From Fibrobacter sp. (lineage in GTDB: Bacteria > Fibrobacterota > Fibrobacteria > Fibrobacterales > Fibrobacteraceae), in assembly GCA_024399065.1 (NCBI GenBank), contig JAKSIB010000028.1, positions 1-43,615 of the forward strand: a DNA stretch of 43,615 nt, read 5' to 3'. Made by a program: the position numbers and the translations under genes. The notes under the pieces were generated by a model. That model saw only the letters and a program-made list of their open reading frames with translations, did no database searches and was not told where the DNA came from. Position 1 is the first letter of the stretch; each line of letters opens with the position of its first letter. Of this stretch, positions 20,505 to 41,421 are shown in pieces.

Positions 20505-20514
20505 TCCGCGGATT

Positions 20515-20542
20515 GTCATCCCGGGCTCCGACCCGGGATCTC
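20515..20542. repeat. REP-like palindrome, copy 1
   Basis: GTCATCCCGGG-CTCCGA-CCCGGGATCTC: an eight-base-pair stem (ATCCCGGG/CCCGGGAT) between constant GTC and CTC ends. Two further copies lie at 25363 and 26278. Confidence 0.85.
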
Positions 20543-20544
20543 AT

Positions 20545-20580
20545 AAAAAAGACAGGTTTAAATGAAAACCTGTCTTTTTT
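20545..20580 (+). terminator. Intrinsic terminator of plsX (bidirectional form)
   Basis: GACAGGTTT and AAACCTGTC form a nine-base-pair stem with A6 before it and T6 after it, directly downstream of the REP-like palindrome. Confidence 0.88.
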
Positions 20581-20620
20581 ATATTTGATAGTAGTAATTG
20601 TCTTGAATGAGGATGCTGAA

Positions 20621-23013
20621 ATGAAGAATGTTTTTCATATGATCTGTATTCTGCTGGCAATAGTTAACTGTGCCTGGGCGAATGTTTGGACTGGTTCTAC
20701 GAGCGAACCTCAAGAAATAAAAACGATTGATGGTAGGGAATTTTATGTCATTACCAATGCAGAAGAATTGGCGTGGTTTGCGGCCAAGGTGAATGGCGGC
20801 GATGTTGATGTCAGCGCGATTCTCGGCAACGACATTTTTTTGCTTCAGATGAAGCTAGCACGAGTGCTGTTGCATGGACCCCGATAGGGGTGGATGAAAA
20901 CCATCAGTTCTCGGGTACCTTGGATGGTGCGGGTTTTACCATTTATGGACTTTATGTGGGAAAACATCAATATGCAGGACTCATTGGGGCTTTAGCTGAA
21001 ACAGGTGTTGTAAGGAACTTGAAACTTGCTAGTGGTTCCAATGAAGGTACGAAATATGCTGGGGGAGTTGTGGCTTTGAGTTATGGTACTATTCAAAACA
21101 CAACGAATTTTAGTTCTGTTTCCGCTACAGGAACCCTAGTTTATGCGGGGGGCATCGTTGGCTATAACGAAGGAAATATCCTTGATTGCGATAATGAAGG
21201 AAAAGTATCCACTACTTATGAAAGTGAGAAGGCTGGAAAATACTATGGTTATTCTGGTGGTATGACTGGTTACAGTACAGGTTTTGTAACGGGATGTTTG
21301 AATAAAGCTGCTGTTTCTGCCTATATCCGTATATACAATTCTTACTCCGCTTATGCATATGTTTATGCGGGAGGCATTGCCGCTTATAGTACGGGCTCTG
21401 TCGTCAAGAGCATGAATAGTGGATCGACTTCTGCGAAATTCGGAGCGTCTTATTCCTATTCTCCTGATGCCTATGCTGGCGGAATCGTGGGATATAATAC
21501 AGGAATTCTCTCCACTTGCGTCAATAGCGGGGTTATTGAATCCAATGGAAGTACGTACTCTACTCAAGGTTATGATCATGAATATGCTGGAGGTATTGCT
21601 GGTTCTAGTGTAAGTGTAGTTTCTGATTGCTTTAATAAGGGAAAGACTAGTTCGTCGGGGTATTATCACTATGCTGCAGGGGTACTTCCGAAGGGAAAAG
21701 CGGCAAACTCGTTTGATGTAGTCTCTTTAAAGTACTGGATTAAAGAATCTGAAATTCAGGGGACGGAGAGCTTGATGAAAAGTGCTCAGTTTGCTTGGCT
21801 TCTTAACACATCGAACGGAAGTACTGATAATAGTGGTATTTGGAGTTGGAACAATGAATTCCCCTATTTAGCAGATGAATCTAATAGACCTATTTACAGG
21901 GTGACATTCAATGATGGTATCGTTGATTCTTATGTGTATAGTTCCTATATGGGGACCACTCCGAAGCCTGAGGATGCTGAACCTGAAGCTGGAGAAAAAT
22001 TTGTTGCGTGGATAGATAAAGATGGAAAGGTGTTCCGTTCTCGTGATATTGTGTCTGAAGATCGTGCCTTTTATGCCGTATTTATTGATGAGGAGGCTTC
22101 TGCCTATATAATCACCATTAAAGACGGAGATAATACTTACTCGATTTTAACAGATGAAGAAGGAAAATTGACTTCGTTGCCTGAACATGGTTTAGTTCCT
22201 GAAGGAATGGAATTTGATGGTTGGTTCACGTCCGACAAGAAAAAAGTTGATGAATCAACAATTTTCAATTCTTCGACAACGATTACTGCGGTATATACTC
22301 GCTTAAAGTATACGATTACATTCCTTGATTTTGATGATAGGGTGGTTCTTGAAGATCGCTTTGAGTTGGGCTCTACCCCTGTTGCTGAATCTCCAGAACG
22401 GTCTTCAACGAGTTCCTATTCTTACACCTTCAAGGAATGGACTCCTCAAATTGTTGCTGTTGACGGTCCTGCTACTTATGTTGCGGTCTATGATTCAACA
22501 AAAATAATATGGTTGTCCGTAAATATAGACGGAAAGGAAAGCTCTGTTGTCGATGGTGAAGAAATTTTACTGCCTTCGGCATCGGAACGAGACGGCTATG
22601 TCTTTGTTGGATGGTATGATGCGGAGGGAAACAAATTAGGGGATGAAGGTGATAAGATCGTAGTTAACACGGACTTAGTCATAGAAGCCAAATACGAAAA
22701 GATAAACGACAGTTCGTCTAGTTCCAAAACGGAACCTACTAGTTCTTCATCAATGCCTATGGAGTCGAGTTCCAGTCAAACGGAAAAGGTTATTACTGTT
22801 GTAAATAACCCAAAATTTAATGTAAACGTCGAAGGTCACGTATTGCATGTTTCTGGAATTCATGAAAATTCTCTTGTTGCTGTTATGGATCTGCAAGGAC
22901 GGGTTGTAAGAACGGGATATGCTGATGGTGCAAATTTTGATGTGGTACTTCCGGTTTCTGGTTCGTATATGATTCGCATAAGCAATTATACCCGACTTGT
23001 GCATGTTAGATAA
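20621..23013 (+). CDS. GLUG-repeat surface protein in two frames, joined by a -1 shift
   Basis: Cell-surface protein of about 797 residues if the frames join. Residues 1-74 (signal peptide 'MKNVFHMICILLAIVNCAWA', then mature N-terminus) are in frame 1. The rest continues one base back, from 20842. The junction 'GNDIFL' plus 'ASDEASTSAVAWTPIG' restores the typical start of GLUG-repeat proteins. Without a shift, translation stops at 20885-20887. Residues about 100-350 hold GLUG repeats ('YAGGIVGYNEG', 'YAGGIAAYSTG'), about 425-690 three or four InlB-type B repeats ('GWFTSDKKKV', 'GWYDAEGNKL'), about 695-715 a serine-rich linker, and the last 75 a sorting-type domain. GAGG precedes the ATG. It is AT-richer than its fab neighbours. 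It could be a recoded gene, a phase-variable gene, a pseudogene or a sequencing error. Confidence 0.8.
20836..20842 (+). other. Slippery heptamer T_TTT_TTG at the frame junction
   Basis: In the frame of the ATG at 20621 the codons are ATT TTT TTG, so the heptamer has the X_XXY_YYZ phasing required for -1 ribosomal slippage. After slippage the next codon is GCT at 20842, exactly the frame that stays open to 23013. Small hairpins follow, including ACCCC-GATA-GGGGT at 20878-20891, which carries the zero-frame stop codon TAG (20885-20887) across its loop. A pure T7 tract is also a possible length-variation site. Confidence 0.65.
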
Positions 23014-23100
23014 GGTCTGTTCAAAAACAGGACGTAAGCCCTAGGACACCTTTTTATATCATTGAATTTGGGCCGGACCCTCCTGTTTGTGGTATGAATT

Positions 23101-23126
23101 TTGTAATTTTGTGATGTAAATTACAA
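23101..23126 (+). promoter_or_regulatory. Operator-like inverted repeat before fabD
   Basis: TTGTAATTT (23101-23109) and AAATTACAA (23118-23126) are perfect nine-base inverted arms with an eight-base spacer, ending 26 bases before the fabD start. The position suits a regulator of fatty acid synthesis; no regulator gene is next to it. Confidence 0.55.
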
Positions 23127-23152
23127 CTCGTTGTTTAACTCAAGGAAAAACG

Positions 23153-24073
23153 ATGTCCAAGACTATTCTTCTTTTCCCTGGCCAGGGCGCACAGTACGTC
23201 GGTATGGGCCAGACCCTCGCTTCTACTTTTGAACCTGCAAAGAAGATCATGCAGGAAGCTGACGAAATCCTCGGCTTCTCCCTGTCCAAGCTCATGGCAG
23301 AAGGTCCGGAAGAAGTTCTCAAGAGCACCGACAATACTCAGCCGGCTCTCTTCACCGTGTCCGCAATGGTCATGGAACTCCTGAAGTCCGAAGGTTTTGA
23401 ATTTGACTACGTTGCGGGTCACTCCCTGGGTGAATACTCTGCAATCTACGCTGCCGGCGGCTTCAGCTTTGCTGACGGTCTCCGCCTGGTCCGCACCCGC
23501 GGCGAACTCATGGCTTCTGCCGGTTCCAAGAACCCGGGTGCCATGGCCGCTATCATGGGTCAGGAAGAAGCTAAGATTTTGGAACTCTGCGAAGCCGTGA
23601 AGGATGCTGGCGTCGTGGTTCCTGCAAACATCAACTGCCCGGGCCAGATCGTCGTGTCTGGTGCTCAGGAAGGCGTTGCCAAGCTCTGCGAAAACTGCGG
23701 TGCTGCTGGCATCAAGGCCATTCCTCTGGCAGTGTCCGGCGCTTTCCACTCTCCGCTGATGCAGTTCGCTCAGCCGGGTCTCGCAGAAGCTATCGCAAAG
23801 ACCACTTTCAACGATGTGGCTAAGCCGGTTATCGCTAACGTTATCGCAGAACCTGTCACCTCCGGCAAGGAAATTGCAGACCTCTTGGTCCGCCAGCTGG
23901 TATCCCCGGTCCGTTGGAACGACTGTATGAACAAGGCCATCTCCCTCGGTGTTGACCAGGGTGTTGAAGTGGGTTCCGGCAAGGTCCTCATGGGCCTCAT
24001 GCGCAAGATCAGCCGCGACGTGAAGGTCACCCCCGTCGAAACCATCGAAGCATTTGCTGCATTAAAAGGTTAA
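23153..24073 (+). CDS. fabD: Malonyl-CoA:ACP transacylase
   Basis: Loads malonyl groups onto acyl carrier protein for fatty acid chain extension in the cytoplasm. A 306-residue protein with 'LLFPGQGAQYVGMG' near the N-terminus, the nucleophile S91 in 'GHSLGEYSA', the conserved arginine in 'RTRGELM' and catalytic H199 in 'SGAFHSPLM'. AAGGA precedes the ATG, and a perfect inverted repeat lies just upstream. It opens the fabD-fabG-acpP-rnc cluster, the common bacterial order; fabH is not beside it and fabF is missing between acpP and rnc. Very secure. Confidence 0.97.
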   Translation: MSKTILLFPGQGAQYVGMGQTLASTFEPAKKIMQEADEILGFSLSKLMAEGPEEVLKSTDNTQPALFTVSAMVMELLKSEGFEFDYVAGHSLGEYSAIYAAGGFSFADGLRLVRTRGELMASAGSKNPGAMAAIMGQEEAKILELCEAVKDAGVVVPANINCPGQIVVSGAQEGVAKLCENCGAAGIKAIPLAVSGAFHSPLMQFAQPGLAEAIAKTTFNDVAKPVIANVIAEPVTSGKEIADLLVRQLVSPVRWNDCMNKAISLGVDQGVEVGSGKVLMGLMRKISRDVKVTPVETIEAFAALKG

Positions 24074-30997: not shown

Positions 30998-33900
30998 ATG
31001 ATTACACGACAGCTTTTTGTTAAAATGGCTATGCTGCTCAGTTGCGGCATGGCCTTTGCTGCCCCAGGAACTAAATTTTTCACCTTGACCGAAGAAAAAG
31101 TTACTTCGCAGGCAAGACCTGGTACTGTAGCAAAAGTAACGGGCTACAACTTGTATTTGCGTCAGGCGGATACTGGGTGCGAAGCTGGTCGCTTGTTTGA
31201 AGAAGGAACTTGCCTTGGCTCTGTGGCCAATACCCCCGAGAACTTGTTCAAGTTGCTGGATGAACAGTGGGTTAACCATAAGGGCGATCCCGGTACCGAA
31301 GTTCCGTCCTTGACCTTTATGACCGATATCGACTTGCTTGAATTCTCTGCTAAAACTGCTGTAGGCAAGTGCGAGGTCAACCACGTTGCTTGGCCTGTGC
31401 CGACCGGCGCCGTGATTAACGGTAACAACAAAACTGTCAAGAATCTTTGTTTTGTTTCCGATAAGCCGATGACCAATGCCATGGGTCTTTTTGAACTTGT
31501 GGATGGAACAAATGTTTCCAACCTGAAGATCGACAATGTCCGTATGTCGGTTGGTGGCAGTAACGATGGCGCCGACTACTATCCTATGGGTGCATTTGCT
31601 GGCATCACCAATATGACTACGGTCCAGAACGTTACCGTAAGTAACGTAGATATCCAGGGTCCCGTCGCAGGTGGTATTGTTGGTCTTCTCAAGACTTCTA
31701 CCTTGAAGAGCATCAATAACCATAAAAACATTTCAGTTACAAACAATGTTACTATTACCAAAGGCTATGCAGGGTCCAAGACTTTTGAAAGCTTTTCCCT
31801 TAGTAGAGATTCCGTTTCCTCTCACGATGCTTTTGTGGGCGGTCTTGTTGGCGTAATCCTCCGTGCTGAAAATGCCGGCGACCCTTCTTTGGATGACGTG
31901 TTTGCAACTGTTACTGTAAAGGATTTGGCCAAGGGCCATAAGTCTGCAGTGGGCGGTATTGCTGGTGTGTACAAAACTGTGGGTGAAACGATTTCTGGCA
32001 TTGGCATCGGCAGAAAAATTGTCCCTGCTACCTGTGGCTGGGGTGGCTACTGCACTCCTGCCTCGGTTTCGGATGCAACGGAAGCTTCTGAAATTTCTGG
32101 TGGTAGCTCCATGGGCGGTCTTTTTGGTGCTGTGGTGGTTTATAACAATTATGAATACAGTACGGATGATGCTAACAAGTTCCACCTTACAATGAAAAAT
32201 TGCGCATTCAAGGGCTCTATTTCTGATGCTTCTGTTTATGCCTCCGAAGATGCCGGTCGTGTGATGGCTGTTGGTGGCATCGTTGGCTGGGATTCTCTTC
32301 AGACAAATGATATGTCCTTGTCTATCGAAGAAAGCAATGCTGAAGCAACCATTCAGGACTCTGTAGAAACTGCTGGTAACTATTACTACTATGCAGGTGG
32401 TATTACAGGTTATGGTGATGATCGCCTTTGCAACAATGGTGTAAAGGATGCTTCTGCTGCAATGTCTTTTTCTAATAATACCGCTTCGGGCTCTATCAAT
32501 ATTAAGGCTTCTAGCTCCGATATTGAAGGCCTGCATGTACAGACTTTTGTTGGTGGCGTTGTTGGCACAGCTTGCTTGTCTCAAAGTGCAAAGAATTTTG
32601 TAGGTAACACCTCTTCTGTTGACATTGCTTTGGATATTAAGACCGTTGCTGACGAAAATCTGGTTACGAATGGCGCAAACGTTTATGACACCCTTATTGT
32701 AGGTGGCCTTGCAGGATTTGTTGCGACAGGCTTAACAACGACCTTGCAGGTTTCCAAGGATGTCTTTAAGGGCTCCATTTCCGTGGAAGATAATTTAAAT
32801 ACAACCATGATTGGCGGTATCATTGGTGGTACTTTGCAGCGTGGAGTGAATACTCAAGGTAATGGACATAAGATTGATTTTGCCAGTATGAAGGTTGAAA
32901 AACTGAATGAAAAGTTCGTTGACTACAAAATGAATTCTGCGACCAAGCCCTATTCTGCATTGCAAATTTCTAGAGTGGGCGGTATTTGCGGCTTCTGTAG
33001 TGAACTTGAGAAAATGGATCTTATCAGCGTGATGGGTTCCATCGAAGTGTCTGGCAATTCTGCTGGAGATTCCTTGCTTGTGGGTGGCCTTGCGGGATCC
33101 CTTTATGCATCGGAAGCAACATTGGCTTTCATTACTAGAAGCTTTGTAAATGGCGACATTGCAGTTTCCGCTAATGCTGCAAATAAAAAAGTCGGCTTTA
33201 TGATTGGTTCTGCAGTCTTTAACAAGGGTTGCGCTCTTACATCTAACTACCATTATGGTGAAAATGATGCTGATGTGACCATGCCGGCAGGCGCTCTTTA
33301 TAGAGGCGGCGAACTTGCTGAAACATGGATGTCCAGTATCAATGTGTCTTACACAGTACGAAATGGTGCTGCTGAAAATTTGGATGAAATTCAATTCAAT
33401 GGAACCAAACTTGCCGCAAATATGAAGGTGGATGAATTCACCAAGTTCCTCAAGGCTCCGTATGCCAATATCCAGAATCAGGGTTGGGTTCGTTTGGATG
33501 GCAAGAATAACGATTTGCCTTATGTGGAAGGTGATGCCTCTGGTTGTGACGCTGGATCATTCCTGGTGAATTACTTCGACAAGGATTTGTCCCTTACCAA
33601 GCATGAATGTGTGCCGACAGGTAAAACCATCCAAAAGTTTACTACCGAAGATGTGGCTTATCCGGATAGTATGCATTGTACTGGTTGGAGAGTCCTTGAT
33701 GCAAATAAGGATACCGTTGATTTTGACTTGAAAACACCTATTGACGCAGAAGTAAATCTTTACGCAAAGTATGAACTCAATACCTATACGGTGACCTTTA
33801 CAAAGGGTGGTTCTGCCGTTGGTTCCCCGAAGGTTGTTGCTCATGGTGAAAGTGTCGAATTTCCGACGGTTTCTGGTGGTGCATGGGATTCCCTGGGCTA

Positions 33901-35983
33901 CAATTTTGTTGGCTGGAACGACTCTGTTAGCGTTCTGCGTGTAATCAAGAACTTGGATATCGGTGCCGTCTATGATCCTAAGGTTACCTATTACACTTAC
34001 TTGAATGCTGATACTACTGTCTTTAAGCAGGAATCTTATACCTATCCTGCAAAGCGCGAGGTTATTCCTGATGGCCCTGAGATGGTTGATGGTACTGGTG
34101 TTTACGAATTCAAGTTCTTGGAATGGATTAGCGTTGAATCCGAAGAATATGTCGGTAACGTTTATCAGGCTCTTTATGACACTTCCAAGGCTGTTTACAC
34201 CATTGTGTTCAAGGATAAGGAAGGCAACGTTTATGGCGATACTTTGCGATTGGAATACGGTGAAAAGATTGAATATCCCAATGCGCAAAAGCCTGGTAAG
34301 GAACTTGTCGGATGGTTGCCGGAACCTGAATTCGTAACCAAGAGCGAAGAAATCATTGCTTTCTTTGTGGATGTTAAGAGCTCCAGCAGCGTTGAAGCCG
34401 AAAGCAGTTCCAGCAGCGTTGTTCCGGAAAGTTCTTCCAGCAGTTCTTCTGAATCTGTGCTTGTGAAGAAGGAAATGATTACCGACACAAATACTGTCCA
34501 TCAGGAATCCTATTCCAAGGCTGTCAAACTGGAATTCTCCATCAAGGATGCCGACCCGAAGCATAATACCGATGTTGCTTTGATCGTGCGCAGAGAAGGT
34601 TCCGAAGACTCCATTGCAAAGGCTATGACATTTGATGGTATCGCAAGCATCGATACTGCTTGGGAATTGACGGTTTCTGCCGCAGGTAATTATACTGCTG
34701 ATCTCGTCATTGCCAATGGCGCTTTCGTCGATTCAGTCAAGTTCTCCTTCGTTGTCGAAGACCGAATTACCGTGACCCAGAATAGCTGGAACATGGTTGC
34801 CATGTCTGCAATCAAGTCCCAGAAGCAGGAATGGGGTAAGGGTGGCGCCTTCTTCTGGTGGGATGAATCCAATCCGGTGGGTGATTACTGGCAGTACAAG
34901 GCTTATGCAGGTGAATCTGCAGAAGATACCAAGGGCTTCTGGTACGGTACCACCGCAGGAACTCCTTTGGTAATTGAAGGTGTTGCCAATTGCAAGGACT
35001 CCATGATTGTTTGGGGCTTGAAGAATGTCTACAGCGGTTGGAATCTGGTTGCAAATCCCTGTGGCTGGAGTGTCGACCTGTCTAAGGGCGAAAACGACAG
35101 TGGTGAAAAGGTTGTCTTCTGGCAGTGGAATGCTGCAAAGAGCGACTATGATTCTGTCAAGGTGATTGGTCCCTACAGTGCTGTATGGGTCAATGTGAAG
35201 AAGGCTACCACCTGGCGCATGCCTTCCGCTCCCAGCTTTAATGTTGTAACAAAGAAGATGAGCGCTGAAGATAAGTTCAAGTCTCTCCGCAAGTCTGCAC
35301 TGCGCAAGGCTTCCTCCAAGAATTGGTCCGTGTTGGCAGTGCTCAGCGACAATAACGGAAAGACTGACTCCTGGAATATCCTTGGTGCTGGTGAAACTTC
35401 TGAAACCACTCTGGAACCGCCTTCCGGCATGGGTGACCGCGTCAACCTTTATGTAAAGGATGGCAAGGAAGCCTTGGCAAAGTCTGTGAAGGCTGTGGCC
35501 GACGAATACGAATGGACTTTGAATGTGAACGCAAGCACCAATCGCGAAGGCAAGATTTCCTTTGAAGGTGTTGACGAACTTCAGGCTGCTGGCCTCCACC
35601 TCTATGTTACCGTGGATGGCGTTACCTCCGAAGTCAAGCCGGGCGAATCTGTGAAGGTGGCTCTCACCAAGTCCTACAAGCAGGTGAATGTCCGCGTGGC
35701 TTCCGCCCCGAAGGCTATTGCCGTGGCAAGCCAGATCAATGGTTTCCGTGCGGTCAAGGCTGCCGATGGTCTCCAGATGCAGTTCGAAACCACTGGAGAC
35801 TTGGCTGGTGCTGCTTCCCGCTATGCTCTGGTTGATGTGAAGGGCAAGGTGATTGCTTCTGGCAACTTCTCTGCAAGCGCTGGCAACAATTCCATCACCG
35901 TCGCCGCTCCGAAGGCCGGCATGTACTTCGTTCAGCTGAAGGTTGGCTCCCAGATGAGTTCCGCCAAGGTCCTGGTGAAGTAA
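30998..35983 (+). CDS. Giant GLUG-repeat surface protein with sorting domain (1661 aa)
   Basis: Signal peptide ('MAMLLSCGMAFA'), then from about residue 220 to 705 at least ten 'GG(I/L/V)xG' repeats ('FVGGLVGV', 'AVGGIAGVY', 'SMGGLFGAV', 'FVGGVVGTA', 'MIGGIIGGT') typical of GLUG beta-helix proteins. About 925-1125 are InlB-type B repeats ('FTKGGSAVGSPKVVAHGES', 'GWND'). A poly-serine linker spans about 1127-1153. After an Ig-like stretch, residues about 1262-1661 hold a tryptophan-rich domain ('WNMVAMSAI', 'YSGWNLVANP') and a type IX-like end ('PKAGMYFVQLKVGSQMSSAKVLVK' in outline). AGAGG precedes the ATG. Its tail is shared with the next gene. Probably an adhesin or carbohydrate-facing surface protein; that is inference. 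Confidence 0.88.
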   Translation: MITRQLFVKMAMLLSCGMAFAAPGTKFFTLTEEKVTSQARPGTVAKVTGYNLYLRQADTGCEAGRLFEEGTCLGSVANTPENLFKLLDEQWVNHKGDPGTEVPSLTFMTDIDLLEFSAKTAVGKCEVNHVAWPVPTGAVINGNNKTVKNLCFVSDKPMTNAMGLFELVDGTNVSNLKIDNVRMSVGGSNDGADYYPMGAFAGITNMTTVQNVTVSNVDIQGPVAGGIVGLLKTSTLKSINNHKNISVTNNVTITKGYAGSKTFESFSLSRDSVSSHDAFVGGLVGVILRAENAGDPSLDDVFATVTVKDLAKGHKSAVGGIAGVYKTVGETISGIGIGRKIVPATCGWGGYCTPASVSDATEASEISGGSSMGGLFGAVVVYNNYEYSTDDANKFHLTMKNCAFKGSISDASVYASEDAGRVMAVGGIVGWDSLQTNDMSLSIEESNAEATIQDSVETAGNYYYYAGGITGYGDDRLCNNGVKDASAAMSFSNNTASGSINIKASSSDIEGLHVQTFVGGVVGTACLSQSAKNFVGNTSSVDIALDIKTVADENLVTNGANVYDTLIVGGLAGFVATGLTTTLQVSKDVFKGSISVEDNLNTTMIGGIIGGTLQRGVNTQGNGHKIDFASMKVEKLNEKFVDYKMNSATKPYSALQISRVGGICGFCSELEKMDLISVMGSIEVSGNSAGDSLLVGGLAGSLYASEATLAFITRSFVNGDIAVSANAANKKVGFMIGSAVFNKGCALTSNYHYGENDADVTMPAGALYRGGELAETWMSSINVSYTVRNGAAENLDEIQFNGTKLAANMKVDEFTKFLKAPYANIQNQGWVRLDGKNNDLPYVEGDASGCDAGSFLVNYFDKDLSLTKHECVPTGKTIQKFTTEDVAYPDSMHCTGWRVLDANKDTVDFDLKTPIDAEVNLYAKYELNTYTVTFTKGGSAVGSPKVVAHGESVEFPTVSGGAWDSLGYNFVGWNDSVSVLRVIKNLDIGAVYDPKVTYYTYLNADTTVFKQESYTYPAKREVIPDGPEMVDGTGVYEFKFLEWISVESEEYVGNVYQALYDTSKAVYTIVFKDKEGNVYGDTLRLEYGEKIEYPNAQKPGKELVGWLPEPEFVTKSEEIIAFFVDVKSSSSVEAESSSSSVVPESSSSSSSESVLVKKEMITDTNTVHQESYSKAVKLEFSIKDADPKHNTDVALIVRREGSEDSIAKAMTFDGIASIDTAWELTVSAAGNYTADLVIANGAFVDSVKFSFVVEDRITVTQNSWNMVAMSAIKSQKQEWGKGGAFFWWDESNPVGDYWQYKAYAGESAEDTKGFWYGTTAGTPLVIEGVANCKDSMIVWGLKNVYSGWNLVANPCGWSVDLSKGENDSGEKVVFWQWNAAKSDYDSVKVIGPYSAVWVNVKKATTWRMPSAPSFNVVTKKMSAEDKFKSLRKSALRKASSKNWSVLAVLSDNNGKTDSWNILGAGETSETTLEPPSGMGDRVNLYVKDGKEALAKSVKAVADEYEWTLNVNASTNREGKISFEGVDELQAAGLHLYVTVDGVTSEVKPGESVKVALTKSYKQVNVRVASAPKAIAVASQINGFRAVKAADGLQMQFETTGDLAGAASRYALVDVKGKVIASGNFSASAGNNSITVAAPKAGMYFVQLKVGSQMSSAKVLVK

Positions 35984-36041: not shown

Positions 36042-36219
36042 GTATGAAAAATTCACTCCAAATTAACGTTTTTTGGACGTAAATTCCTTCAACAATCGGC
36101 CATGTAAACGAAAATCAATACTTTAAAATTTTCTTACAATTATCTAAATTCGTTATGTTTGGATGCCCTTTTTGAGGGACGTTGTGCCGTGTATGGCGAA
36201 GGTTTTAAGGGAGAATCTT

Positions 36220-39200
36220 ATGAAAAAGATCTCGTATGTTGCTTTTTTGTTGTTGACGCTGGTTGCGTCTGTTTTTGCTGCAGAAGGTGAAAAATTCCAT
36301 TACCAATGCTATAACAAAGGCTTGTTCAAGGAGGGGGACAGTCCTGTCGCCGCACCAGATGTTGGTAGGTATTGCTATGTGAACTATGGCAAGGCCATGG
36401 CTGATTCTGCGGTTCAGAGTAAGGATGATCTTGCGGAAAATGGTTCAACTACCAATTGGAATGATGTAGTTAATGTAATCCAAACGTATCCAAATGGGGT
36501 CTCCCTCAATTCGCTCCATTTGATTTTGCTGTCTGATTTGAAATTTCCAGGCTATAACGATATTACAAAGAGTTGCTTTGATAATGCTTCTTCGATAACT
36601 TTGACCGAAAAGGATTTTACACAAACAGCTTTTGTTTTTGATGGGAAAAAACACGTTATCAAGAACTATTGTCAACAAGGACGTCACGAAGTTGGCTTTT
36701 TTGGAACATTGTTGACTAAGCATAATGAACTTAATGACGTGACTTTTGAAAATGCCTATATAGAAATGACGGATGATAACACGGCTTCAACACTTAATAA
36801 AGTGGCGGTTTTTGTAGATAGTGTTGGCCCAGGCTCTCTAACGGGTATCTCCATAAAAAATTCAAAAATCGTGGTCAACAATAATTCTGGAAAAAATTCT
36901 GAGATTTTTCTGGGAGCGATAGGAGCTCGTGTTGGGAATGTTCAAATTCAACAGGATACGGTGGAAAATGTTTCCATAACTGGATCGGTTGGTACTTTAG
37001 GATCAGGTTCTTTCTATGTTGGCGGCCTTGTTGGAACTGCTGATTTTATAGGGGATGAAGGACGAGGAACCTTTACTGCAAATAGGGCGTCTGTGCAAAT
37101 TGATTTGCCGGAAGTAGCTGATGTTGATGTTGGTGGCTTGGCTGGTTTTGTGAGAGTGGGCGGTGGTTCCTATCATTATATTCAAAGGAATTATGTCTCT
37201 CCTCATACTTCGATTAATGGGGGAAATGCAGATTCTTTGTTTATTATAAAGTTGTCACAAAAAGAAATGCGTCGAGTGAATGCCGGTGGCCTGGTTGGAA
37301 GACTGTACGCTGTCTCTTCGTTTGTTGATTGCTCTGTTGAAAACAACAGCGTTGTTGGACGCTTGTCTGTGGCTGCTACAAAAATAACGAGCGATGATTC
37401 TCCTTTGGAATCAGGGGCTGTGGGTGGCCTTTTTGGGTATGTTTTTTTGGGTGATCGAACGCTCACGATTATTTATAATAAAATCATTGGGGATGTGGAT
37501 GTTAACGATATGTTCGTAGGAACTGGTTCTTACTACTGTGGCTATGTAGCAGGTGTTGTGGAAGAAAGTTTGGGGTCAAATGCGAAGAATCGTTTGCTTT
37601 TGAATTACCATTATGGTTTTGCTGATCAAAATGTTGATAAGTATGTGAAGTTCTGGGGCGTGTTTGGTGCTGATGGTCCTAAAGAAATTGATTCTTCAAT
37701 CCGTAATGAAATCCGCTATAATTACCGTAATGCTATAGGAAAAGGAAACGATGTTAAGCTTGCTGCCAACGGTTCCTTGAATTATGAAGGTACGGTATAC
37801 GGCCCAACCGCAACGTATGACAATCCAATTCTGAGTGAAGAGGACATGAAGTCACGCTTGTTTGCCTACGTGTTGATTGAGAATGGAAAAGCCATTTCTG
37901 TGGCTAGCGGAAACCCCCACCCCTCCTGGGAGGTTGATTCTACCAATGGGGGCTTGCCGTATATAACAGACAAGCAATCTGTGTATATGGTGGCAATTGA
38001 TATTTCGAAATTTTCAAACTTTACGGTTTCGCCTGTTGAAAATGATCTGTATGACAAATTCAAGAATTTGAAAAAATTTTACGACTCAAAAAGAGATCGT
38101 ACACAATATCGTTATGTGGCACTGACTGATATTAATGGCCGACTGCCCAAAGACTTTGTTGACGCCTATGAAAAGGACGTGAAAAATAACGGGTATGCGT
38201 TGAATTATGATAATCGTGCAGCGACTCTTTCCCCTTATAAAGTGTACGAATTAAAAAATAGGTCGGGTTATCATGAGTATGAAGTTGTTGAAGAGATTCC
38301 TTTTAATATTGAATATGGAATTTTAGGATTGGATCCTAACGGAGGTCTCCATATTGATAAGTTTGAGGATGAAACCTATTTTGTCTATTCTCCAGCCAAG
38401 GTTGAAAAAGCTGGTGCTTATGATGTGACAAAGATTATTCCTAGAATATTTGATACGAGTGATAATAATGCAGAATGGTTTGTTAGTGCTTATGAACTAC
38501 GCTGTGTAAATGAGGAGGGTCTCGATGTCCGTAAAGAAGGGGATGATGTAGATATTAATCATTGGAGCTTGTCTAGAATTTTAAACGAAATTGTTTCAGC
38601 AGGCGACGTGTATAAGACATGCGCAAATACTCCGACATTACGTTTGGGATATGAAAAGCTGAGTACAGGTGTTGCGAAGACTATTGCTGTTTCTCCAAAC
38701 GAATGGTCCTTGGATACTCCCGTTGAAATTTACGGATACAAAAAGGGCCAATTGGAAAGGCTTGACAGTACCTCTGTTGGTCCAGATCCTGTTTATGTTC
38801 CTTGGACTTCCCAGTATAAAATTGATTTGATGAGCCGTGGCTATGAGCATGTCAAGCCAATGGAGGTGGATGTCTGGTATTTTGATCAATATTTTTATGC
38901 CAGTGCAGAAATGTTGTTGGATTGCTTGAAGGATCACCCCTTGAAACTAGATGGTTGTTTTGAACAGACAGAATATGAGCATAAATACTATGATTCTGCT
39001 TCCGCTTATTTGGGCTCTCCTGATGAGATTAGTGCGGCCATCGAAACTTATCCTGCTGTTCGTTGGAGAGTTCCATTGGACTCCTCCAAAAAAATATCCT
39101 TGGATAGTTTGACTGCAGGCTTGTTTAGAAATGTAAATACTGACTTAAGTAACGTTTTGATCAAGATTGTTCCGAGACCCAATGTTATTCCGGAAATCTA

Positions 39201-41421
39201 CAGCATCGCCTTTATGCTAGATGATACTACCGGTGTACTCAGAGAGTATCCGTTTTATCATTCGCAAACAGGCGAGGTGTATGCCTGGGGTGATACCGTT
39301 GATTATTGCATTGATGGGGATCTATGCATGCGAGATTATCCGCATGACATCTATCGCAATGACGGGTGTGTTGTGGGGTGGACTTCCGAGAACATGAAAA
39401 TGAATGACTCAACCTTGAAATTCGGCTTGGGGGGCGATTTCCAGTTTGAGCTTCTTAGTGAAGCCTTGGAACCTGGTGCGTCGACGCTGTATCCCCTCTG
39501 GGCTCCCGCAGCGTATTGCGCCGAAGAAAAGCTTTCTGAAGAAGATAACGTCAAGTGGTCTGGAGCTAATGTTGAAGGAACCTTTACCCGGACTGTAATG
39601 AATGTTTTGGGTGGTGAAGTGATAATCCTGGACATTGATAAAAGAGCTGAGATTCTTGATACAACAATTCGTTATTTGGGAAAGAGCAAGTCAATGCTTC
39701 TTCCGCTAAATGATCCTGTGGAAATTGCAATTACTCGCAAACGAATTCTGCAATTTGAAGCCAAGGCTGGGTTCAAGGCTCCGGAATACATGACGCTTAG
39801 TTATGATAGTTCCCGCGTGTCAGATTTTTCGAATCTTGATGTTGATTTCACTTCGATTCATGTGAAGGACGGGGATTCCTTGCCGTCTGATTTAAGATGG
39901 AGTGTGCTAGAGGGTGTTTTTGAAATGGTGGATACTTCATCTCTTGCATTTGTTGACACCGCAGTGATTTCTTCTGGATATGCGGCTCGCTTGAAGGTTT
40001 CTACAACCAAGTTTGCTGCAGGTCGTGATGCAACGTTGAAGATTTCCTTTACGGATAATCTTGGCAATGAACTTAAATTCCCGAAGGCTATTGACACCGC
40101 AATTGTTGAAACGCCCTTTGTCTTGGATACTACGTTCATTCTTCGCCCTGGCAGCTATGTTGTTCGTGGAGAATTACGAGATGCATGGGATTCCGTGGCA
40201 ACCTTTACATCTCATGTCGTAGTTTCCTCCGAAATCCCTGCCGGTAAGGATAAGTGGATTATGGTTAATCTTAAGGCTGTTGACATGAAGAGCGTGGGCA
40301 AGGACGATGACCAGATTTTCTACTGGTGGAATGACAACGCCGACGTTGGGGAATTCTGGCGATACATCCGCTTTATTCCGGGTGAAGACTTAGCTGCAAA
40401 TAGAGGTTATTGGTATAGCTCTCTGGAAGGTCGCTCTCTGAAAATCAATACATCCTATGTAGATAGTGTCTACGATGTGGTCTGGAACTTGGTCAATGGC
40501 TACGATGGCTGGAACCTTGTAAGCAATCCCCACAGCTGGGATATCGCGGTCCCAGATTCTTTGGATATGTCCTGCTGGGATGAAAGTGTTTCTAATTACG
40601 ACGATTGTCATAATGTACTGCGTGGATTCAGGGCTGCCTGGGTTCATGTGGAAAAGTCCAACAAGGTAAAGTTGAAGGGCGAGCCTGTCTTTACTTCGGG
40701 TGTAGCCGGCTTCAAGAAGCGCGCCTTGGCGAAGGCCAAGAATGCGGAAAACTGGACCATCAGTGCTGTTCTTGCAGATAATCGTGGCCATCAGGATTTC
40801 TGGAACGTGTTGGGTATGGGCGAGGAGCTTGAAGGCTATGAACCTCCTGCCGGCATGGGCGACCAGGTGAATTTCTCCATCAAGAATGGCAAGAAGTTCC
40901 TGGCTAAGTCCGTGAAGGCCGCTCCCGCATCTTCCAAGGATGCTGCTGATCTGGAATGGGACGTGGTGCTGAGCGCCTCTTCTGATCGCAAGGGCAAGCT
41001 TTCATTCGATGGTCTGGATGGTATTGCCGGCTTTGGATATCATCTGTACGTGACTATGGATGGCAAGACTTCTGAATTAATGGCCGGTGATACGCTTCCT
41101 GTGGCCCTTAAGGCGGCAGGGACCACTGCCAAGGTTCGCGTCACCAAGGAAAAGCTGTATTTCAAGACCTCCGTGGATGGCCTCCGTATGGCACAGTCCG
41201 GAAACAAGTTGAATGTGAGCTTTACCGCTACCGAAAATCTGGCTGGTACCCGCGTGGTGGTGGATGTGCTGGGTATGGATGGCAAGGTGATTTCCTCCAT
41301 CGCCGACAAGGCTGCGGCCGGAACCAACGCCGTAACTCTGGATGCCCCCAAGCCAGGCCTCTATATGCTCCGTGTCCGAGTGGCAAGTCAACAGGCTAGC
41401 CGCAAGATTTTGGTGAAATAA
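36220..41421 (+). CDS. Giant GLUG-repeat surface protein with sorting domain (1733 aa)
   Basis: The signal peptide 'MKKISYVAFLLLTLVASVFA' opens the protein. Residues about 250-450 carry GLUG-type 'YVGGLVGTA', 'DVGGLAGFV', 'NAGGLVGRLY' and 'AVGGLFGYV'. The middle (about 500-1340) matches nothing I recognise and has no poly-serine linker. Residues about 1347-1733 repeat the tail of the 30998 gene: 'WIMVNLKAV', 'YWWNDN', 'YDGWNLVSNP', 'PAGMGDQVNFSIKNGKKFLAKSVKA' in outline, 'GYHLYVTMDGKTSEL' and 'PGLYMLRVRVASQQASRKILVK' in outline. The start at 36220 is set by AAGGGAGA and the signal peptide. Base composition changes inside the gene: the N-terminal two thirds are AT-rich, the tail is not. Surface adhesin is the likely but unproven role. 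Confidence 0.85.
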   Translation: MKKISYVAFLLLTLVASVFAAEGEKFHYQCYNKGLFKEGDSPVAAPDVGRYCYVNYGKAMADSAVQSKDDLAENGSTTNWNDVVNVIQTYPNGVSLNSLHLILLSDLKFPGYNDITKSCFDNASSITLTEKDFTQTAFVFDGKKHVIKNYCQQGRHEVGFFGTLLTKHNELNDVTFENAYIEMTDDNTASTLNKVAVFVDSVGPGSLTGISIKNSKIVVNNNSGKNSEIFLGAIGARVGNVQIQQDTVENVSITGSVGTLGSGSFYVGGLVGTADFIGDEGRGTFTANRASVQIDLPEVADVDVGGLAGFVRVGGGSYHYIQRNYVSPHTSINGGNADSLFIIKLSQKEMRRVNAGGLVGRLYAVSSFVDCSVENNSVVGRLSVAATKITSDDSPLESGAVGGLFGYVFLGDRTLTIIYNKIIGDVDVNDMFVGTGSYYCGYVAGVVEESLGSNAKNRLLLNYHYGFADQNVDKYVKFWGVFGADGPKEIDSSIRNEIRYNYRNAIGKGNDVKLAANGSLNYEGTVYGPTATYDNPILSEEDMKSRLFAYVLIENGKAISVASGNPHPSWEVDSTNGGLPYITDKQSVYMVAIDISKFSNFTVSPVENDLYDKFKNLKKFYDSKRDRTQYRYVALTDINGRLPKDFVDAYEKDVKNNGYALNYDNRAATLSPYKVYELKNRSGYHEYEVVEEIPFNIEYGILGLDPNGGLHIDKFEDETYFVYSPAKVEKAGAYDVTKIIPRIFDTSDNNAEWFVSAYELRCVNEEGLDVRKEGDDVDINHWSLSRILNEIVSAGDVYKTCANTPTLRLGYEKLSTGVAKTIAVSPNEWSLDTPVEIYGYKKGQLERLDSTSVGPDPVYVPWTSQYKIDLMSRGYEHVKPMEVDVWYFDQYFYASAEMLLDCLKDHPLKLDGCFEQTEYEHKYYDSASAYLGSPDEISAAIETYPAVRWRVPLDSSKKISLDSLTAGLFRNVNTDLSNVLIKIVPRPNVIPEIYSIAFMLDDTTGVLREYPFYHSQTGEVYAWGDTVDYCIDGDLCMRDYPHDIYRNDGCVVGWTSENMKMNDSTLKFGLGGDFQFELLSEALEPGASTLYPLWAPAAYCAEEKLSEEDNVKWSGANVEGTFTRTVMNVLGGEVIILDIDKRAEILDTTIRYLGKSKSMLLPLNDPVEIAITRKRILQFEAKAGFKAPEYMTLSYDSSRVSDFSNLDVDFTSIHVKDGDSLPSDLRWSVLEGVFEMVDTSSLAFVDTAVISSGYAARLKVSTTKFAAGRDATLKISFTDNLGNELKFPKAIDTAIVETPFVLDTTFILRPGSYVVRGELRDAWDSVATFTSHVVVSSEIPAGKDKWIMVNLKAVDMKSVGKDDDQIFYWWNDNADVGEFWRYIRFIPGEDLAANRGYWYSSLEGRSLKINTSYVDSVYDVVWNLVNGYDGWNLVSNPHSWDIAVPDSLDMSCWDESVSNYDDCHNVLRGFRAAWVHVEKSNKVKLKGEPVFTSGVAGFKKRALAKAKNAENWTISAVLADNRGHQDFWNVLGMGEELEGYEPPAGMGDQVNFSIKNGKKFLAKSVKAAPASSKDAADLEWDVVLSASSDRKGKLSFDGLDGIAGFGYHLYVTMDGKTSELMAGDTLPVALKAAGTTAKVRVTKEKLYFKTSVDGLRMAQSGNKLNVSFTATENLAGTRVVVDVLGMDGKVISSIADKAAAGTNAVTLDAPKPGLYMLRVRVASQQASRKILVK

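Follow-up and report, generated by a model that had tools for sequence, protein, structure and literature searches.

A split surface-protein gene of Fibrobacter sp. probably reflects loss of one base from a T-rich run, which would itself leave a -1 slippery heptamer

Analysis of a 43,615-nt window (the whole stretch of DNA studied, one of the 118 contigs that make up a 3.82 Mb draft genome) reveals a single Fibrobacter sp. surface-protein gene (20621-23013, plus strand) that occupies two reading frames, beginning in the frame of ATG 20621 and continuing in the -1 frame. Comparison with related sequences suggests that the gene very probably lost one base from a T-rich run and is a dispensable adhesin gene broken either by recent mutation or by an assembly error. 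The two frames, the unbroken homologues without the heptamer and the variability of the locus are observed, whereas the direction and recency of the indel, as well as any bypass of it, are inferred.

The zero frame (20621-20887, plus strand) encodes a signal peptide and the start of a GLUG protein, shows N-terminal homology with unbroken members of the family and ends after 88 aa at TAG 20885-20887. The site of the presumed one-base loss is a T7G tract on the same strand, with T7 at 20835-20841 and G at 20842, which places T_TTT_TTG (20836-20842) in X_XXY_YYZ phase relative to ATG 20621. The -1 frame runs uninterrupted through 725 codons from 20836 until a stop whose last base is 23013, and contains no other defect. 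Coordinates and phase confirm the first-pass annotation in its description of one surface-protein gene in two frames meeting at this heptamer, which lies within their overlap of ~26 codons. The heptamer is not a rare one, as TTTTTTG occurs 20 times in the window against 19.7 expected. Inspection of 58 intact relatives reveals 215 in-phase A/T slippery heptamers, spread over 53 of the genes and including four TTTTTTG; from this frequency (215 per ~62,800 codons), the chance of finding one within a ~26-codon overlap is ~9%.

When read through, the product comprises a signal peptide followed, in the part encoded by 20836-23013 on the plus strand, by GLUG repeats, Listeria-Bacteroides or InlB B-type repeats (Flg_new), a Ser-rich linker and a type IX-like sorting tail. 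The tail scores 21.0 bits (E 2.4e-4) against sorting domain TIGR04183, just under the curated cut-off of 23. With the N-terminal 183 aa as query, 78 of 80 Fibrobacter genomes yield relatives, the best 55% identical, and by these matches the joined protein is a member of a large Fibrobacter surface-protein family. Signal peptide, NDI...WTPIG motif, GLUG, Flg_new, Ser-rich linker and C-terminal tail are common to the present protein and that family; the present member differs in being split over two frames, with its best homologues ~50-55% identical over the N-terminal 183 aa. A search within the genus for close DNA-level relatives of the gene returned short pieces only.

To place the break in the context of this family, 60 family loci were fetched from Fibrobacter genomes of other species of the genus (one genome per species) and aligned across the junction. 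All 60 homologues cross the junction in one frame, typically with the codons AAT GAT ATT GTT TTT GGA. T_TTT_TTG at the junction is found in 0 of the 60, the longest T run there is 6, and four carry other in-phase heptamers nearby. The break is thus private to one genome among uninterrupted homologues, as expected of a pseudogene or a sequence error, and the first-pass annotation's dull alternatives of that kind are the ones best supported. It had also named uninterrupted relatives lacking the heptamer as the observation that would count against it, and for other species of the genus this is what the alignment contains. Viral contigs searched for the junction, at any tract length, gave no match. 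Most frame breaks confined to a single genome go back to indel mutations or sequencing errors (PMC3711429). Those of that GeneTack survey likewise combine a break in one genome with intact relatives and no conserved shift motif; the Fibrobacter break differs from them in that the homopolymer on which it lies resembles a shift site.

The resemblance may have a simple origin. Homologues carry Ile-x-Phe at the junction, where x is Val, Leu, His, Phe, Ile and others. If x were Phe (TTT), codons 72-74 would contain a T8 run, a hot spot for one-base loss, and such a loss would automatically leave T7G with T_TTT_TTG in the -1 phase. In two of its three possible phases, a T8 run that loses one base retains an in-phase -1 heptamer, which ties the motif to the lesion. 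A heptamer created by the base loss itself is not independent evidence for a program, and even a flawless slippery site where two frames meet says little when taken alone. On this reading the gene, which is dispensable, either mutated naturally and recently or was misassembled. Without slippage the gene would yield an 88-aa secreted stub with no repeats and no sorting tail, while accidental ribosomal or transcriptional bypass may yield a little full-length protein. Low-level incidental bypass is possible, and plausible because indel-prone runs also permit bypass, measurable for indels at homonucleotide runs of 3-8 bases (PMC3812077), and because T6G is a functional shift site in phage P2 (PMC3931495).

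Other family members have decayed at other sites. Although 58 of the 60 fetched homologues are intact to the tail, at least four family members besides the present gene are broken, at other places and by other lesions: a frameshift near A6/T5 in L116 (genome G038), a frameshift outside any long homopolymer in L120 (G065), and, in the two exceptions among the 60, an internal deletion with frame change in L125 (G037) and a nonsense codon in L167 (G043). Individual copies thus seem to decay fairly often, and these lesions share neither site nor kind. The G038 break was considered as a parallel frameshift site and rejected, as it lies ~60 codons further on, beside A6/T5, and runs in the opposite direction, which indicates parallel decay. 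Short open frames in contigs G063:C3 and G020:C64 were rejected as breaks because they are contig ends.

With regard to the choice between mutation and assembly error, the survey for split genes covered the window and the family loci. Within the window, comparison with the ORFs of eight relatives gave no second case that was convincing, as the candidates elsewhere in it proved to be ORF ends or antisense ORFs. The ORF 36163-41421, which is long and intact, includes two other A7/T7 runs. Together these observations indicate that the assembly is not generally poor at homopolymers, and a real mutation is mildly favoured over an assembly error. Two findings count against a one-base loss. First, the 725-codon remainder is free of defects, as would also be expected if slippage kept the gene expressed; given that 4.7% of substitutions in the -1 frame would create a stop, the lack of a nonsense codon does no more than limit a neutral lesion to an age of ~3% divergence. 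Second, T_TTT_TTG serves for real -1 shifts in phage P2 (PMC3931495), and a modest hairpin region lies downstream.

Of the alternatives, phase variation survives best, and it is still unlikely. It holds that replication slippage adds a base to the T tract or removes one, which turns production of the surface protein on or off, with the sequenced culture in the off state. The gene does have suitable features, being a surface-exposed repeat protein with a homopolymer break early in the gene and an intact remainder. Against this, contingency tracts tend to be longer than 7-8 T's, no long T run is present at the junction in the 60 homologues, and the other broken members carry different lesions at different places. 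The over-representation of long simple repeats that marks contingency loci was not found in the family: the 58 intact genes contain 50 homopolymers of at least 7, against 50.8 (sd 6.8) expected from synonymous shuffling, and 10 of at least 8, against 10.5 expected. The phase-variation reading of the first-pass annotation therefore finds no support across the genus or in homopolymer excess, although the tract may still vary within the species. Should it vary in the population, this gut bacterium, a degrader of fibre, would have a surface protein subject to phase variation. A broader form, in which the adhesin recently acquired either T_TTT_TTG as a shift site or a T tract that acts as an on/off switch, such that only some ribosomes or some cells produce the protein and a fresh indel has been turned into regulation, is quite unlikely.

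Programmed -1 ribosomal frameshifting, in which the heptamer would set the ratio of the 88-aa product to the full surface protein, is very unlikely. The heptamer is exactly in phase, and it is the motif of real -1 shifts in phage P2, where the tail genes E/E' undergo programmed frameshifting at the same T6G (PMC3931495). The arrangement is conserved among P2-like phages, whereas no relative of the Fibrobacter gene has it; conservation of the kind expected of a programmed site was found in 0 of the 60 homologues. In E. coli, U_UUU_UUA and U_UUU_UUU shifted far less readily than A_AAA_AAG (PMC5009743). Intact genes often contain in-phase A/T heptamers, as counted above, no Shine-Dalgarno-like stretch is seen upstream of the present one, and the 88-aa short product has no recognisable domain.

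Predicted folding downstream of the heptamer is of moderate strength. The first predicted stem begins 6 nt 3' of the heptamer (-5.0 kcal/mol alone), and folding of 51 nt gives a z-score of -2.1; with 100 nt the z-score is -1.5 and this stem is absent from the minimum-energy fold. The downstream fold ranks in the top 2% within the AT-rich gene, but only in the top 9% within the window. The hairpin containing the zero-frame TAG that had been noted previously is real (20877-20893, plus strand; GACCCCGATAGGGGTGG, -9.5 kcal/mol folded alone). It is the strongest in the region and lies over the Thr-Pro-Ile-Gly codons of the conserved Trp-Thr-Pro-Ile-Gly motif, whose CCNATNGG core is inherently half-palindromic. 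Homologues keep these amino acids, and folding there is mostly weak. The TAG-containing hairpin is thus most likely a result of coding, and with the site lacking in all 60 homologues the earlier proposal of programmed frameshifting is unsupported.

Transcriptional slippage on the T tract, as a regulated means of bringing part of the mRNAs back into frame, is extremely unlikely. The bypass measurable at short runs (PMC3812077) speaks for it, while runs shorter than about nine A or T show no evident selection against slippage in many bacteria (PMC1088944). T7 runs also occur in intact homologues and inside the intact ORF 36163-41421, and the tract is unconserved among the 60 homologues. Equally improbable are two translationally coupled genes, the second starting from GTG 20890, two bases past the TAG, and opening 707 codons; this arrangement was rejected because every aligned homologue is a single gene across the point, and the second product would be without a signal peptide, which a surface protein requires.

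The surface gene sits between plsX (Pfam) and fabD. In the closest species, with fabD 96% identical, the segment 20581-23080 (plus strand) is replaced by ~100 bp, so that the gap lacks the surface gene. In other relatives the same gap holds a gene for a lipoprotein with Ser-rich linkers, whole or truncated, or a putative PD-(D/E)XK-family transposase gene, named by resemblance. On these contents the plsX-fabD gap is a variable site, with the surface gene as apparently dispensable cargo. The gap itself (20505-23153), whose contents differ between close species, looks like an integration-tolerant site inside the fatty-acid gene cluster. At 20510-20555 it contains a REP-like palindrome, CATCCCGGGCTCCGACCCGGGATC, with about a dozen copies in the genome at 85-94% identity. 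Further along the window lie two adjacent, very long ORFs of 1661 aa (30998-35983) and 1752 aa (36163-41421), the former with a List_Bact repeat and a weak type IX sorting tail and the latter with no Pfam match.
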